Positions 54,483 through 64,000 of a DNA stretch of 64,000 bases are shown one piece after another (within the stretch, counting starts at the first letter, position 1; each line of letters begins with the position of its first letter). Below the pieces are notes generated by a model. That model was not told the origin of the DNA. It worked only from the letters and a program-made list of their open reading frames with translations, and did not search any database. Where the stretch lies: positions 6,445,501 to 6,509,500 of the forward strand of contig NC_134680.1 in the NCBI RefSeq assembly GCF_024713945.1, in the 5' to 3' direction. The translations under genes and the position numbers were made by a program. The stretch comes from Dermatophagoides farinae (Eukaryota; Arthropoda; Arachnida; Sarcoptiformes; Pyroglyphidae).

Positions 54483-57162
54483 ATGGCGGCAACATCAAAG
54501 ATAAATCTTCAAATGTATCATGATGATGATGATGATGATGATGAATTAGCAGAAGCAATAATAATCAAAGAATCAAATGATAAAGATCTAAAGAAAGAAG
54601 AATCATCATCGTTATCGTTATCGTTATCAATGAATTCTTCATCAACACCAATGTCATCGACAACAACAACAACATGGACAATGTCGGCTTCAAATTCTTT
54701 GATCTTGACAGCTAATAATAATACAGCAGCTTCTGCTGTTGCTCATCATGATCATCATGATGATGATGATGATGATGATGGTAAAGATCAAAGAAAAATT
54801 TACCGACAAAATTATCGTCATTTTATTCATCATCATCATCATCATCTTGATCAAAATGATGATGATGAACAAAGAAAACAACAACAAGATGGTGATATAA
54901 CGACGAAAAAAGAAGAAAATCTTTATATCACCAATAACAACAACAACAACAGCAACAAGACGAATGTTAATGTAGGCGTTGACCAAGATAAATATGGGCG
55001 TGGCCATCAGATTATTACCAATAATCAAAATATCAATGATGATCAATCATCAATGATAATTGTTATTGGTGCTGGTGGCGAATTGAATTTAAATCAAGCT
55101 GTCGACGACGACGACGACGATGATGATGATGAAGAAATTGGAGAAAATATTCATTTACTTCAACAACACCAGCAACAATCATTCGACCTACAGCACCAAA
55201 ACCGACAACAACAACAACAACAACGAAGACGACGACGAGTTAAAGTCGAATTGAAACCAGCACCAACACCACCAACACCACAACAACTACCACCACTAAA
55301 TACGACGATCAAGACGACTTCAACTAGTTCAAATGATCAAATCAGAAACACTTTGATTTTAGCACCGATTGTATCATCATCATCATCATCATCATCACAG
55401 TCATTTTCACCTGTGTATAATCAAAATAACAACAACAAAACGGCGTCAATTATAATACAAAACGATTCTAGTCGTCGTCATTGTCGTCGTAATAAATGTA
55501 AATTGATTGTAAATCAATTCGATTCCGGTTCGTCAACAACAAAAATATTGCCAACGATTAAAACAATACGTGAAACATATAGATCTGGAATAATTGATTA
55601 TCGTCAACAACGTCGACGATCACATCGACAACGAAAACATCAGCATCATCATCATCATTATATGATTGCGCCAAATACAACAACGACAACGAAATGGAAA
55701 AAGGATTTTTGGCTGAAATTCTGGTCACATCAACGACAACAACAACAACGTCAGTGTCAACGTGAACATTTACAGCTATTAAAATCAATTGATGATAATT
55801 ATGATGATGATGATGAATATATTGATATTTGTGGTGAAAATCAATCATCATCATCATTAATTGATGATCAATCACAACGGTATTCATATTGTTATTATAA
55901 TTTTTTCTATTTTCCACCATACGTTCGTCCATCACTTAGTTTAAATCATGATGATGATCATGATCAACATCGAAAATATTCATCAACATCATCATTGAAT
56001 ACATTGATACCAACGGAATCATTTGAACAATCAAAACTATCGAATATCGGTATCGATACCGATATCGAACATCAACAACAACAATTGAATTTTATGCAAT
56101 CAAAATCATCATATCCCGAATGTTTATTAATGAATGGGAAAAATTCTTCACCATTTGATTCACAACAACAAGAATATCGAAATTATTCTAAACAGTATCA
56201 TTTTTATAATAATCAACAACAATCGAAAAAAATATCCGATACTATCGAAACAACAATCGTCAATGATTTAGATTCGAATGAAAAAACATTCGAACAATCA
56301 TCATTGAATATAAATTATTCGATTCCTCCATCATCAACATCATCGACATTATCATCAACGATTCAACAACAATTATCATCACAAGAATCATCATCATCAA
56401 CATCATCTTCATCGCAATCGGCAACAACCATATGTTTATCAACAATCATGGAAGTATTACCATTGATTCTATTATTATCGATGGGTGTTATCATATCAAC
56501 TACATGTGCCAAATATAGATTTCAATCATCAACAACGAATTTTGTTTCACCATCACCATTATCATCATCATCATCATCATATCATCAAGATTATTTGATG
56601 AATATTTTAAGAAAAAATTCAACTACCTCATCACCATCTTCGAAGACGACGACGATGATAAACGATTCAAATTTGAATCATAATGATAGACAAAGTGATG
56701 AGATCAATAATAAAAATGTTGATGATGATGATGATGAATTTATGAATCGAATGATGAATGATGAAGAATCACCATCACCATCATCATCATCGATTCATCA
56801 AACATTGGAAAATCGGCCACATTATGCAATGTATCATAGTGGTAGTGGTCAACAACAACAGCAACAACAACAATCATCAGGGAAATCAATGAATTTGGCT
56901 GGAACATCCCAACAGCAGTTATTTGCACAACTTGCACATCAATATTCAGCTATGCATCTACAATGGTTATCCAATTCATCTGTTACTTGTAATGATGGTA
57001 CACGTGCCGGTTATTATATACGGCCATCACCAACAGGTTCCCGTAGATGGATAATATTTCTTGAAGGTGGTTGGTATTGTATGAGCAAAAGTGCTTGTGA
57101 TCAACGTTGGTATAAAATGCGTGATTTTATGACTTCATTTCGTTGGAGCCAATATAAAACTG
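54483..57162 (+). CDS. Notum: Notum exon 1: N-terminal extension, signal/anchor segment, start of hydrolase core
   Basis: 893 codons plus one base. Residues 1-655 are runs of Asp, His, Gln, Asn and Ser with basic patches (RRHCRRNKCK). Residues 656-676 form a hydrophobic segment (MEVLPLILLLSMGVI...). The conserved core then begins near 820. Both ATG 54483 (AAATATGG) and ATG 56448 (AATCATGG) have A at -3 and G at +4. The donor is ACTG then GTAAGT. Nearly 2 kb without a stop in AT-rich DNA argues that the extension is translated in at least one isoform. Confidence 0.85.
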
Positions 57163-60139
57163 GTAAGTTGTTTTTTCCAGTTAGTTTTCAGTTGGTCATA
57201 ATTTGGTCAATTTGGTGTGTGTATCGACCCTTTTTTATGAATTGCAATCATTTTGACCAGTTACAAGTGTGTTTATTTATCAGTGTGAATTGAGCTCTTC
57301 ATCTTCATTTTTGTTTGTTGTTGCTGCTGCTGCTGTTTGGAGAGCGAGAGACCGAAAAAAAAGAAAGAAAAAGCTTACCCGATAATGTGTCGGCTTGTCA
57401 ATCTTTGATCTTGTTTTGAATTTCAATTCATGATCATGAATGATTATCATGTGAAGACAAATATCGTAGAAAAAAAAACATGAAGCCGGTCATCCATGTA
57501 TCGAATGGAAACAAAACAAAAATTTTCAATGTTCTGGCTTGGTTTGTATGCAATACTTGTCACCTATGGACCATATATTGATTCGAACAAACACACACAC
57601 ACACAGTTAGATGAAATGAATAAATTAATGATTTATCTCGAAACAAGAAACGAAAAAAAAATACAAAATCTTTCACCATTTTTGTTGTTGTTGTTGTTGT
57701 TTATTTTAATTATTTAGCACATTATACATTGATGATGATGATGATGATGATTGAAACCAGAAAACCAAACATCGAAAAAAAAATCAGTTCAAACTAATGA
57801 AGCCAGAATAGATAGAATCACAAGAATGTACACATACACACACATATATCAAGTGTAAAAAAAAAAATTTTTTTTTGTTTTTGTTTTTGTTTTCATTCTC
57901 ATTTTACATTTATGAAAAATCCATAAAAATAATAACCCTCTCTTTCTATGTTTTGGTGAAACAGAACACACAACACACATCGAGTGTGTGTGTCTGATTA
58001 CTGATGGACGAATAGATTTATAAAATGTTCACATGATGATAAAGGGCCAAAAAATGAAATTTTTTTTTTTTGGTTATTAATTTGAAAAAATAAACAAAAA
58101 CAACACGGCACATTGAACATTCTTTTTTGTTTTTTTTTTGTTTGGTTCATTTATTTATAGTTAGTGGAATACTATCATCATCACCATCAATGAATCCATA
58201 TTGGTGGAATGCAAATCATGTTTTCATACCATATTGTTCATCGGATATTTGGAGCGGTGATTCACCGGCCAAACCACCAACGATGGCCATGTCATTTTTT
58301 GGTTCACGTATCATTGATGAAGTTATTGGTGAATTAATACGTTCACCAACGTATGGATTTTTGGATTCAAAATTCATACTTTTGGCTGGTTCATCAGCCG
58401 GTGCTGCCGGTGTTATGATTAATTTGGATCGTGTAGCGAAAATGATATCCGATGCTGGTTCATCTGCTGATGTTCGTGGTCTGGCTGATTCCGGTTGGAT
58501 TATGGATTCGGATGACCATCATCATCATCATCATCAAATGCCGGTTGGATTTACGAATCAAGATAAACAACAAAGTTCGTCATCATCATCAATGCCATGT
58601 GCGGATGGTATTTGTTCACCAACCGAAATGATTCGTGGTGCCTATAGGTTTGTTTGTGTGGATTGAAATTTTCTTCAATAAACAAAAAAATTTTCTTTTT
58701 TCATCATGAATTTTAGATTATGGAATAGCCGTGTACCGGAATCTTGTGCTAAACAATATCCACAAGAACCATGGCGTTGTTATTTTGGTTATCGTCTTTA
58801 TCCAACATTATCAACACCATTATTTGTTGTACAATTTCAATATGATGAATTTCAATTATACATGGATGGTTTAGCAAATCAAGCAATGAATGAAATGGAA
58901 CGTATCCATTATATACGACAATTATCACAACAAATGATACAAACATTGACTAATGTTAGCGCCGTATTTGTTCCATCATGTATGGCGCATATTTTATTGA
59001 CCAAATTAGATTGGTACAAAGTATCCATCAATGGTATAACATTTCCAGAAGCATTGAATTGTTGGGAACAAACACCGGTGAATTATAATAATCATTATCA
59101 TCATCATCATCATCATCATCATAATCGTTATCATCCATATCAACAAAATCATCGATCAATGTTTACGAATACAAATTCAAAATTTTCAAGATTCACAAAT
59201 AATTCACCTGATCATCATCATCATTATTTTGGTCCAATCATTGATTCTTCTTCTTCTTCATCATCATCAATGATGGATCAACAAAATGAATTATCACAAT
59301 TTTATTCACCATCATCATCATCAACCGGTTCATCAATGAATAATGATAATTTCCTCAATTATCTTACATTAAAATCAAAAAATTCTTCTGCATATTATTC
59401 ACATCAACAAAATGATCAAATCCAACAACAGGAAGAAAAACTGCCAATATTTTTGAAATGGTCATCAGATTTAAAAACATCAACATCATCAACAACAACG
59501 ACGGCTGCTACGCCCACCACCACCACTACATCATCATCTACAACCCTTGTATTAGATAGTAACAATATTAATAGAACATTAGATTTACAAACACAATCGT
59601 CACAAATAATTAATCAAAATCAGAATAAAAATAAACGTAAAAAACGTAAACGACGTAAAGGTCATCATCATCATCATCATCAGAATAATCGTAAAATGAC
59701 AACATCGACCATTTCAACATTATCGATTGATTCTATAATACAGAATGATGATGATGATGATGATAATGGTAGATATTATCATCATAATTCATATCAATCA
59801 CCATCACCATCATCCTATCATCATTATCATCAATTATTAAATACAAAAATGTCACCATCATCTAAATCATTACATCCATATTATCAACAACAATCATCTT
59901 CACAACAAATTCCATTATCATCATTGAATAGAAATTCTTATTGGAATCCATCATTTTATCCACATCATCATCAACATCATGAATTACGAATGTGTCATTA
60001 TCGTTTAATAGATAATCGTCAATTTCCCGATCGTAATCATGAATGTCCACGTTTACAATTTAATCATAATCAACCATCAACAACATCAAATAATGATAAT
60101 CGTGATCATCATTATCGTCAAAAATCTTATCACATTTGA
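54483..60139 (+). CDS. Notum: Notum, Wnt palmitoleoyl-protein carboxylesterase, whole coding region (3 exons)
   Basis: Notum is a secreted or surface hydrolase that removes the palmitoleate from Wnt ligands and so turns Wnt signalling down. Exons 54483-57162, 58161-58647 and 58717-60139 join in frame as 1529 residues. The conserved core runs from about residue 830 (SNSSVTCNDG, RRWIIFLEGGWYC) through NPYWWNANHVFIPYCSSDIW, GSSAGAAGV, VRGLADSGW and YRLYPTL to LNCWE (1175). The catalytic triad is intact: Ser972 in GSSAG, Asp1099 in QYDEF, His1147 in MAHI. Oddities: a 655-residue low-complexity N-terminal extension; a hydrophobic segment starting at Met656 that would make a good signal peptide by itself; and about 305 low-complexity residues (1176-1480) before the C-terminal Cys-containing tail. 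Human and fly Notum are much shorter. Identity is very sure; the start is not. Confidence 0.95.
57163..58160 (+). other. Notum intron 1 (998 bp)
   Basis: GTAAGT ... TTATAG. Contains (ATG)n, (TTG)n and (CA)n tracts; no exon seen inside. Short open frames here are low complexity. Confidence 0.9.
58161..58647 (+). CDS. Notum: Notum exon 2: catalytic serine region
   Basis: Begins after TTTATTTATAG in phase (G plus TT = Val): SGILSSSPSMNPYWWNANHV, then FIPYCSSDIWSG. Carries the nucleophile in LLAGSSAGAAG and the RGLADSGW block, then a His run and Ser run insert before CADGICSPTEMIRGAYR. Ends TATAG then GTTTGT, with two bases carried to exon 3. Confidence 0.93.
58717..60139 (+). CDS. Notum: Notum exon 3: catalytic Asp and His, low-complexity insert, C-terminus
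   Basis: Follows a 69 bp intron. LWNSRVPESCAKQYP, WRCYFGYRLYPTL and FVVQFQYDEFQ (Asp1099), then VPSCMAHILL (His1147) and EALNCWEQ. About 305 residues of His, Ser, Asn and Thr runs follow, including an (ATG)n-coded Asp run and a KRKKRKRRKG basic cluster. It ends with MCHYRLIDNRQFPDRNHECP, related to the Cys-containing tail of other Notums, and TGA at 60137-60139. Confidence 0.93.
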
Positions 60140-60456: not shown

Positions 60457-62112
60457 ATGAAAATGAATCATCAGATTTTATTAATGGCTAAAATTTTGGT
60501 TATCATTTCATTTTCATTGCCATTTGTGATGGCAAACAGCAACAACAACAACAACAACAACAATCGAACAATGATGGTATTGAAAATATCGATAAAATGT
60601 GGATCATATGGCCGACAATTTAATCAAACACTTGGCATATCATTTATGAATGATCATGTTTATCAATTATTCAAAGATTTCACCACGATTGTTTATGGAC
60701 CATTGATGACACATTTTGATCATGAAAAACATCGTCTCAGTCTATCCAATGGACAGCAACGTTTATCATTGAAACAATTGAATAAACGATGGAAATTATT
60801 TCAGGATGTGGATTTTTTTTCACTACAACAATATAGTCAACATTTGAAACTAATGGAATTTCATCAACATTTTGGTATGGCCATTTATGACCATCCAAAA
60901 TTAGGACCAACAATGGCCATCTATATGAAACGTTCATCCATTGAATATAATTATGAATTCTATACAATCAATGATCCAATACAACAGATTTCCATTGAAA
61001 GAATTTATTCACGGCCAACACAATGGATATTGATAAGCGGCAATGGTGATGCACATTTAATTCTATATGAAAATGAAAATAAAATTCCTAAATTTCAAGT
61101 ATTAAACAATCCATTACAACGTTCATCAATTGGTCATCTTTGTGTGGATAGTAAACAAAAAACCATCCGTTTAATAAAACCAAATAACGATAATACAGAT
61201 GATCAATGTAACAATGATGAACAAGAATCAACTGGACAAATTTTATCGACCATCAATTATGGTTTCACTTATAAAAATCAATGGCTATATTTGGTGTCCA
61301 TTGAAAAACAAAATGTTTTCTACGTCAATTATCAATTGATTTTATCGAAAGATGATGATGATGATAAACAAAGAGCAAAAAATTATTCATTACAAATGAA
61401 ATCGATTCGTGATTTTGTGGCCAATTGTGATTCATTAGTTAATTTTGATGATGATGATGATGGAATTTCAACGAATTTTTCGCATAACATTGATGATGGC
61501 GCCGATAATGATTCCACTAGATTCGTCATTCAATCATTATCATCGAAGAATATTTTTTCACAAGAAAATCGTCTTGCAATAATCATTATTACCGCATTGC
61601 TTTTATCGATTCTGTTGGTCATTTTATTGTTTGCCATATTTTTGATATCGGAATTTTATTTACAAAAATCAACAGCTACAACTGCTATTGCTGCTACTAA
61701 AAAAGAACGTCATCATTATCATCGTGAAAAGAAGCCAGAATCAGAATTATTAAAACCAACAACAATGGAAAATGAAAACAACTACAACAACAACAACAAT
61801 GGTGATGAAAATGTTGTTGATGAAAAAACAGAAACAACAACCACTACGATAAAATCAATATCAAAATCATCGACAAAACAGCAATCATCACCAATGATAA
61901 AAAATGTTAAAATTCGTTTACGGTCAGCATCATTATCACCGCCGCAGCCGTCGTCGTCAAGCGCTGTAAAATCATTGAAATTACAATCATTATCGGAAAT
62001 ATCTACACAAAAAGCATCGAAAACCTCGCCATCTCGATCATCGGCTGAAATCAATACATCAAAATCATCGGTAATAGTTGAGAAAAATGAAAAATCCAAA
62101 AAACAAGATTAA
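60457..62112 (+). CDS. Tandem family member A: type I single-pass membrane protein, unknown family
   Basis: Intronless, 551 residues from ATG 60457. Chosen start: MKMNHQILLMAKILVIISFS is followed by a plausible cleavage after VMA; an in-frame ATG at 60304 would add 51 residues. The ectodomain (about 25-372) has four Cys (first in KCG at residue 48), potential N-glycosylation sites and an Asp run. The membrane span is about 374-402; the tail (403-551) is Lys, Ser and Thr-rich. Homology to the next gene is visible in TLGISFMNDHVYQLF, NNPLQRSSIGHLC and INYGFTYKNQWLYLVS. I do not recognise the family, so no function is assigned. Stop TAA at 62110-62112. Confidence 0.8.
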   Translation: MKMNHQILLMAKILVIISFSLPFVMANSNNNNNNNNRTMMVLKISIKCGSYGRQFNQTLGISFMNDHVYQLFKDFTTIVYGPLMTHFDHEKHRLSLSNGQQRLSLKQLNKRWKLFQDVDFFSLQQYSQHLKLMEFHQHFGMAIYDHPKLGPTMAIYMKRSSIEYNYEFYTINDPIQQISIERIYSRPTQWILISGNGDAHLILYENENKIPKFQVLNNPLQRSSIGHLCVDSKQKTIRLIKPNNDNTDDQCNNDEQESTGQILSTINYGFTYKNQWLYLVSIEKQNVFYVNYQLILSKDDDDDKQRAKNYSLQMKSIRDFVANCDSLVNFDDDDDGISTNFSHNIDDGADNDSTRFVIQSLSSKNIFSQENRLAIIIITALLLSILLVILLFAIFLISEFYLQKSTATTAIAATKKERHHYHREKKPESELLKPTTMENENNYNNNNNGDENVVDEKTETTTTTIKSISKSSTKQQSSPMIKNVKIRLRSASLSPPQPSSSSAVKSLKLQSLSEISTQKASKTSPSRSSAEINTSKSSVIVEKNEKSKKQD

Positions 62113-62120
62113 AATTTTAA

Positions 62121-62126
62121 ATTAAA
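62121..62126 (+). terminator. Candidate variant poly(A) signal of member A
   Basis: ATTAAA nine bases past the stop; no AATAAA in the 110 bp gap. Weak evidence. Confidence 0.3.
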
Positions 62127-62156
62127 TTTTAAAATTTTCGAATTCTTTTTGTTCCA

Positions 62157-62162
62157 TATAAA
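62157..62162 (+). promoter_or_regulatory. Candidate TATA box of member B
   Basis: TATAAA in ATATAAATTT, 61-66 bases upstream of ATG 62223, inside the 110 bp gap after member A. The position suits a promoter with a very short 5' UTR. Confidence 0.35.
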
Positions 62163-62222
62163 TTTGGAATTGATTTTGTTCGATTAGTTTTCGTGTGTTT
62201 ACTGTTTTGATATTCATGAAAA

Positions 62223-63587
62223 ATGATAATAATACGGTGGTGGTGGTTGTTTCTGTTGCCACTGCTGCTGCGGATATCGAAACATTCTAATTCCAAAATT
62301 CTTCTTGATCAACAACAATCATTTCGTTCTGATTTATCATCATCATCATCATCACCACAATCATTATGGTTTCGTAATGATTCATTGGGCACGACAATTG
62401 AATGTGGAACAAACTATCAAATGGTTGGCCTATCAATTGTTGATGGTTATATTTTTCAATTTCTACACAATTGTAGTGTAATCATTTATCCACCAAATGA
62501 TGATGATTCGCACATCATCAATGATGGTGAAGAATTATCGTTGACCAATGGTCGTTTATATGGATTCAATAAAATGTTGCCAGAAAATCTGACAAAATTG
62601 TTTTGTATCAATCAACAGCAGCAGCAAAAGAAATTTGGTTATTCATTGAATCGTAAATCAAAAAATATGCTCATTTTACATTATTGGTCATCGAAACAAT
62701 CAATGCAAACAACAACACAAATCGATTATTTACAATTGATCATAAGGAATTCATTTTATTCATTAAAACAAGAAAATTATGAATCAAACAACAACCAGGA
62801 AGTACATTTTTTTATGATCAATAATGATGGCAGATCAACATTGTTCATCACGAATGAATCTAATGATAATAAAAAGATTCATCATCAATACGGAATAATA
62901 AGCAATCCATTGAAAACGAAAAAACAAAAAATTGGCTATTTTTGCCTGATAACGTCATCTGATGGCAAACAACAAAATCATTCATATCATTCATCGATCA
63001 CCATTCAATTACAATCAGAACCATGTACATCGAATTGGCAATTAATGAATGAATTATTCGCCGATATTGATTTTGGTTTCACTTGTGGAGAAAAATTATT
63101 TCTAATCACCAGCAAACAAATGGAATTTTTCATGCTGATTTCACAAAGAAAAATGTTGACAAAATGGAATCAAATTTTCACCATTCAAATGGCAACATTT
63201 GACGATGTTTTCATTTGTAATGATTGGAATGTTCATCATATCAACACGAACAAGCGATGGAATAAAACATCGGCAACAATGATCACTACTACTGGAATGC
63301 AGCAGAAATTGATTAATCATTGGAAAATGGTCGCAATCGTTTTGATGATATTCATTTTTACATCATTATTCGCTATATTCTTATACGGTTGTTTTGTGGC
63401 CCATTGTCGTAAACGTAAAATTCTATATGTGATGGTTTCATCGCCATCATCACCAACAGGGTGGACAACGATTCCATCAATCGATGATTATTCATATAGT
63501 AATCGAAACAAAAGAATGAATCAAAAACTACTGGATAACCACCGTCAACAACAACAACAATATCGTCGTGTACGAGAAAAATATTGA
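62223..63587 (+). CDS. Tandem family member B: type I single-pass membrane protein, unknown family
   Basis: Intronless, 454 residues. N-terminal signal (WWWLFLLPLLL). The ectodomain has seven Cys: ECG (61), NCS (84), LFC, YFC, EPC, FTC and ICN. The block GLSIVDGYIFQF, then CSVIIYPP, is shared almost verbatim with the next gene; ELSLTNG, ISNPLKTKKQKIGYFC and IDFGFTCGEKLFLI are shared with member A. The membrane span is about 369-392, followed by a short basic tail (RKRK) with a Gln run. Stop TGA at 63585-63587. Single exon, same strand and 110 bp after A, so it arose by tandem duplication. Function unknown; the layout suggests a surface receptor or decoy-like ectodomain, but that is a guess. 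Confidence 0.85.
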   Translation: MIIIRWWWLFLLPLLLRISKHSNSKILLDQQQSFRSDLSSSSSSPQSLWFRNDSLGTTIECGTNYQMVGLSIVDGYIFQFLHNCSVIIYPPNDDDSHIINDGEELSLTNGRLYGFNKMLPENLTKLFCINQQQQQKKFGYSLNRKSKNMLILHYWSSKQSMQTTTQIDYLQLIIRNSFYSLKQENYESNNNQEVHFFMINNDGRSTLFITNESNDNKKIHHQYGIISNPLKTKKQKIGYFCLITSSDGKQQNHSYHSSITIQLQSEPCTSNWQLMNELFADIDFGFTCGEKLFLITSKQMEFFMLISQRKMLTKWNQIFTIQMATFDDVFICNDWNVHHINTNKRWNKTSATMITTTGMQQKLINHWKMVAIVLMIFIFTSLFAIFLYGCFVAHCRKRKILYVMVSSPSSPTGWTTIPSIDDYSYSNRNKRMNQKLLDNHRQQQQQYRRVREKY

Positions 63588-63650
63588 TTGATCGAAAATT
63601 GAATTTTTTTAAAAAAAAAACACATGTAATTTAATTTCAACATTTTCGTA

Positions 63651-63656
63651 AATAAA
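63651..63656 (+). terminator. Poly(A) signal of member B, possibly also TATA-like for member C
   Basis: AATAAA 64 bases past the stop. The same stretch (AATAAAAAG) lies about 24 bases before TCAGTG at 63674, an arthropod initiator-like motif, and about 90 before the next ATG. One sequence could serve both roles. Confidence 0.45.
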
Positions 63657-63740
63657 AAGTGTTAGTTTTCCTTTCAGTGTAGAATTCGAATTTTATGTTT
63701 TTTAATGGTCTAGTTTTTCTGTCAACGAATCTCAAATTGA

Positions 63741-64000
63741 ATGATGAAAAAAACTGCCAACATTTCCATGTTCATTATATTGTTATTGTTGATAATTATA
63801 CAAGAATCTTTTGCTGATTCCAAGTCCATATGGTTTGCTGATATTGCCAATTCTAAAATCCACGTTGATTGTGGTCTGGATTATGATATATTTGGCTTGT
63901 CCATAATCGATGATTATCTGTATCAATTTGAAAAATGTTCGGTCATCATTTATCCACCACCATTGCAAAAATATTTAATACACAATGATGATATACAATG
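63741..64000 (+). CDS. Tandem family member C, 5' part (truncated by the window end)
   Basis: ATG 63741 opens a frame that runs to the right edge (86 full codons). The signal peptide (MFIILLLLIIIQ region) is followed by IHVDCGLDYDIFGLSIIDDY, then QFEKCSVIIYPP, closely matching member B at residues 59-91 with the same Cys pair (44 and 66). It begins 153 bp after member B. Clear third copy of the family; the remainder lies outside the window. Confidence 0.85.
   Translation, partial: MMKKTANISMFIILLLLIIIQESFADSKSIWFADIANSKIHVDCGLDYDIFGLSIIDDYLYQFEKCSVIIYPPPLQKYLIHNDDIQ

Follow-up and report, generated by a model that had tools for sequence, protein, structure and literature searches.

The window that we analysed, a stretch of 64,000 nucleotides from the mite Dermatophagoides farinae (C4:6445501-6509500 of a 62.4-Mb, 22-contig assembly), carries at its right end a tandem array of genes that all lie on the same strand (Table 1). 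The species assignment agrees with a Blo-t-5-family gene of this genome, in which 111 of 114 aligned residues are the same as in Der f 21 and the 3 mismatches fall at the N-terminal end. An initial annotation of this DNA had claimed at least three such genes. Its positions for A, B and the beginning of C are correct, and the contig, when fetched rightward, completes C (L002:3942-5234, 430 aa, one span), which stops 1033 bases past the window. The same rightward extension, which had been proposed as a way of counting copies, adds gene D and brings the array to four copies. The tandem-gene observation at the right end of the window is confirmed. The spacers between the genes are short (A-B, 110 bases; B-C, 153 bases; C-D, 119 bases), and the frames of A-D run unbroken from the N-terminal helix through the span to the stop, so that the description of the genes as intronless holds for the coding frames as read in genomic DNA. 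The single membrane span claimed for A and for B is likewise placed by hydropathy. (Note that the tails and loops of the array proteins contain N, D, S and Q runs.)

Table 1. Coordinates of the array genes, their membrane spans and the upstream neighbour; positions are those of the window unless a locus is named.
Feature	Position	Strand	Remarks
Notum-like gene (context, outside the family)	54483..60139	+	three frames matching pectinacetylesterase
Gene A	60457..62112	+	551 aa in a single frame; N-terminal helix, 4 cysteines in the ectodomain, one span, 160-aa tail
Membrane span of A, residues 373-391	61573..61629	+	hydropathy
Gene B	62223..63587	+	single frame, 454 aa; layout as in A, 67-aa tail
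Membrane span of B, residues 369-387	63327..63383	+	hydropathy
Gene C, first 86 codons	63741..64000	+	cut by the window edge
Gene D	L002:5354-6718	same strand as A-C	fourth copy; 454 aa counted from the chosen ATG

The array had also been described as lying next to Notum, and the frames upstream of A bear this out, since they match pectinacetylesterase, the Pfam family of which we take Notum to be a member. In the first of these frames (window 54483-57293) about 800 residues, much of them low-complexity (runs of D, H, N, Q, S and T), precede the pectinacetylesterase match, and in the last (window 58706-60139) about 350 low-complexity residues come after it; part of this low-complexity sequence may be untranslated or unspliced. 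To the right of D lies a minus-strand DUF4187 gene, followed by an RCC1-repeat gene.

Homology and genomic distribution of the array genes

The array proteins had been said to share a set of landmarks, and this holds in part. B and C carry the CG...GLSI...QF motif unchanged, D departs from it by one residue (GISI), and A has a degenerate form. CSVIIYPP occurs without change in B, C and D and is absent from A. The NPL...GxxC block is present in A and B, while C and D have its GxxC half alone, and the YGFT/FGFT block is found in A and B and is missing from C and D. With B as the query, D was found at E 3.7e-26 and C at E 2.5e-25. Moreover, when each of 18 family proteins was held out in turn, a profile built on the other 17 recovered it in 17 of the 18 cases (E 2.7e-12 to 9.5e-58), the values for the array being 2.4e-33 (A), 2.6e-42 (B), 8.8e-50 (C) and 9.5e-58 (D). 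The controls were 185 frames counted as non-family together with 50 shuffles per protein; the best control score, 6.4e-7, came from a frame (L071:2759-3112) that may itself be a further family copy, and the second among the 185 frames was 6.2e-5 (L067:1483-1995). The one protein that was missed, C9_484k, was placed in the family by its landmarks. Three cysteines are invariant in 14 aligned proteins and a fourth is present in at least 90% of them; in the 18-protein alignment the four cysteine columns are conserved in 15 of 17, 16 of 18, 16 of 16 and 18 of 18 proteins. Judged by these comparisons, A-D are homologous, with a likeness beyond chance.

When the assembly was searched with individual proteins and with a typed consensus of the family, 25 candidate family frames emerged, of which 6 are weak; they are spread over 7 of the 22 contigs (C2, C3, C4, C6, C8, C9 and C10); because the search scores the best candidates only, 25 is a lower bound. 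This count is made up of 21 distinct open frames (17 with a match at E ≤0.001) and four in a cluster at 0.48 Mb of C9. Eighteen of the candidates were read and aligned, one on C3 (E 3.2e-7) is unread, and the weak ones that were kept lie on C2 (two), on C8 (one), at 7.08 Mb of C4 (one) and at 0.487 and 0.489 Mb of C9 (two). L011, L022, L059 and L067 were excluded after reading as unrelated or low-complexity, and a further set was excluded unread as weak, as matching over the span and tail, or as containing stops (C2:100293, C6:3523796, C6:1917257, C5:354643, C3:5063677, C6:3195182, C4:1006268, C7:65898 and C4:6083979). None of the 18 frames read has an internal stop; C9_483k is truncated at its locus edge, and for three of the 18 (C4_6541k, C4_4192k and C6_4703k) the start was chosen by eye, the ATG being unproven.

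On this evidence from sequence likeness, the family is dispersed and has several clusters, the array being one of them and no small local novelty. The initial proposal of a local array of fast-diverging, mostly single-span surface proteins is upheld, with the addition of many copies elsewhere in the genome. (On C9, at about 482-490 kb in L071 and beyond, four or more divergent frames of the family make up another cluster.)

The copies are strongly diverged, and the tree suggests that the array combines one older copy with three younger ones, because B, C and D fall into a single clade (99/98), within which C and D group together (100/99), and A pairs on a long branch with C9_483k (88/81) rather than with its neighbours. 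Note that 3 of the 15 inner branches of the tree are strongly supported and 8 are open. Chromosomal place follows the tree: it takes 8 changes, whereas shuffled labels average 11.9 (0 of 200 shuffles as low). The initial annotation had invoked selection as the driver of the divergence. Crude dN/dS values, which are noisy at such divergence (Nei-Gojobori), range from 0.36 to 0.86 and stay below 1 in all eight pairs compared; they are high and give no sign of positive selection, so that this part of the claim is not supported.

Protein layout and searches for a known fold

The family proteins have a common layout. Among the 17 that have their N-terminus, 13 show an N-terminal hydrophobic helix at a threshold of mean hydropathy 1.6 over 19 residues, the other four falling below it. 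A C-terminal span is present in 16 of the 18 proteins, and in these it is followed by a tail of 14 to 178 residues whose composition, judged by eye, suggests disorder. A third hydrophobic stretch occurs in C9_484k and C10_2583k. The two proteins without a C-terminal span, C6_4704k and C6_4706k, are possibly secreted versions. (On C6, at about 4.704-4.706 Mb, the adjoining spanless members at L019:66-1238 and L019:1489-2574, both on the minus strand, end shortly after the last conserved cysteine.) In the consensus of the ectodomain, short hydrophobic runs resemble strands when inspected by eye.

The family could not initially be placed among known ones, and searches with the family proteins lead to the same result, in that no fitting Pfam or PDB sequence family and no strong match was found. 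For 14 of the 18 members the best Pfam match had an E of 2.8e-4, with matches scattered over unrelated families; when Pfam and PDB sequences were searched with individual proteins or with the alignment, the matches were all weak and scattered, several of them lying over the membrane span. The hemopexin type is the classic four-bladed propeller fold, and its blade number is possibly like that of the family described here. However, hemopexin (PF00045) was absent from the best 25 of the 38 Pfam families matched by 14 members at E up to 1 (the other 13 families come after E 0.066), nor did it appear among the Pfam matches obtained at E up to 10 with A, B and the first part of C.

Two structure predictions, made from the window sequences of A, B and the incomplete C only, are both strand-rich and both poor (pLDDT 34 and 38), and Foldseek returned no match at E ≤0.001 with either. 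Phage tail fibres top the list obtained with the first of these low-confidence models, none at E ≤0.001; with the second, equally poor, the best E was 0.69, and several of the top matches are presumably propellers. We also compared profiles of four putative blades with borders set by eye. Blades 1 and 3 scored above column shuffles (1 of 200 as high), but column shuffling also destroys strand periodicity, so this score is no proof of a repeat; for the other five blade pairs 18 to 153 of 200 shuffles were as high, and hhalign, run on blades 1 and 4 as the only pair, aligned 4 columns. Because the models are too poor to judge the fold, the four-blade propeller considered below is taken from the literature (PMC12105342).

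Likeness to the 4BetaP family and competing readings

A family with a matching layout, 4BetaP, was reported in 2025 in D. pteronyssinus as "a previously undescribed family" that comprises at least 119 genes with male bias (PMC12105342, section 23), so the designation of the array genes as undescribed is probably wrong. According to that paper, male levels of 4BetaP transcripts exceed female levels 2.7- to 429.7-fold, and the proteins have a membrane helix at the N-terminus, a non-cytoplasmic propeller of four blades, generally at least one C-terminal membrane helix, and a putatively disordered cytoplasmic tail of variable length (PMC12105342). As described there, 4BetaP has in common with the D. 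farinae family the N-terminal helix, ectodomain, C-terminal span and variable tail; moreover, both are large multigene families without other known domains, and the two species are sisters. Note that this is a comparison by description of layout and not by sequence, that D. farinae has two copies without a span, and that at least 119 4BetaP genes stand against 25 candidates, itself a lower bound, in D. farinae.

Because layout, family size, the lack of other domains and close species kinship coincide, the best reading is that the array genes are 4BetaP genes of D. farinae, encoding what would be ligand-binding ectodomains on male reproductive cells, and we consider this reading probable. The interpretation given in the initial annotation is, in this light, partly supported. 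Among the literature matches listed, whose coverage mostly leaves out subscription journals, there is no description of the family in D. farinae, and the main text of the 4BetaP paper contains no word beginning with "intron" (PMC12105342). Our analysis adds to that paper the single-exon frames, the tandem clusters, the four conserved cysteines and the two spanless copies.

The likeness to 4BetaP is, as noted, one of described layout, the models reach pLDDT values of just 34 and 38, and one of the six blade pairs lies clearly above shuffles. These points, together with the commonness of a layout composed of an N-terminal helix, an ectodomain, a span and a variable tail and with the want of a Pfam match, would also accord with a separate mite family, so far without a name, whose members are receptors or adhesion proteins of the cell surface, are 4BetaP-like in layout only and serve, for example, gut or cuticle cells in defence or sensing. 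We think this unlikely, since layout, family size, absence of other domains and the sister-species setting would all have to coincide with 4BetaP, and a second such family in one genus would be a coincidence.

Single-frame, dispersed genes whose products have an N-terminal helix and one span might instead derive from envelope-type genes that came from a virus or transposon, were domesticated or decayed, and spread as single-exon copies. That origin strikes us as very improbable, because D, the sole copy scanned, has no close relative in the viral collection, the frames of at least 150 aa to the right of the array are those of the DUF4187 and RCC1-repeat genes, the 18 frames read are free of internal stops, and the copies are very diverged and not recent. 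A scan of the bacterial collection with D likewise gave no relative. As for the idea that the frames are spurious products of low-complexity, AT-rich DNA, to which the N, D, S and Q runs in tails and loops might point, it is scarcely credible and is contradicted by the conservation of cysteines and landmarks, by leave-one-out recovery in 17 of 18 cases, and by a dN below dS in 8 of 8 pairs.

If the array genes are 4BetaP genes, then their anatomy suggests how the proteins may work. The N-terminal helix would send the ectodomain outside the cell, where this cysteine-bearing, beta-rich part, probably a four-bladed propeller as in the sister species, may be held together by disulphides; the C-terminal span would keep it at the surface with the disordered tail inside the cell, and copies without a span would be secreted. 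If the male bias of D. pteronyssinus holds in D. farinae too, the ectodomains are most likely displayed by sperm, male germ cells or cells of male glands and may bind partners in mating or sperm function; fast divergence after repeated duplication, both in tandem and to dispersed sites, could have provided every copy with a binding face of its own. Among genes of the male germline, single-exon genes in many copies are common. A bolder version, which we find rather doubtful and offer tentatively, is that of a very large family of single-exon genes for receptors on the surface of sperm or male-gland cells, with a minimal four-cysteine propeller as their scaffold, in which tandem and dispersed copying and fast divergence are as expected for the recognition of mating partners or sperm in mites, and in which the spanless copies are secreted partners or decoys.

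The main value of the array is as a pointer to mite male reproduction. Should its genes be 4BetaP genes, this family, which ranks among the largest with male bias that have been reported in a house dust mite, would be available in a second species, and D. farinae and D. pteronyssinus would make a close species pair for testing gene turnover, selection and expression. In the 4BetaP paper, the C. elegans proteins Q22625 and Q19393 are described as germline-expressed and similar in structure to one 4BetaP protein, their role being called unknown (PMC12105342).

One further observation concerns C6 at about 4.718 Mb, where a frame that looks kinase-like by eye (L015:2607-3797, minus strand) adjoins the family member C6_4717k; male-biased kinase families are among those reported in D. 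pteronyssinus (PMC12105342).
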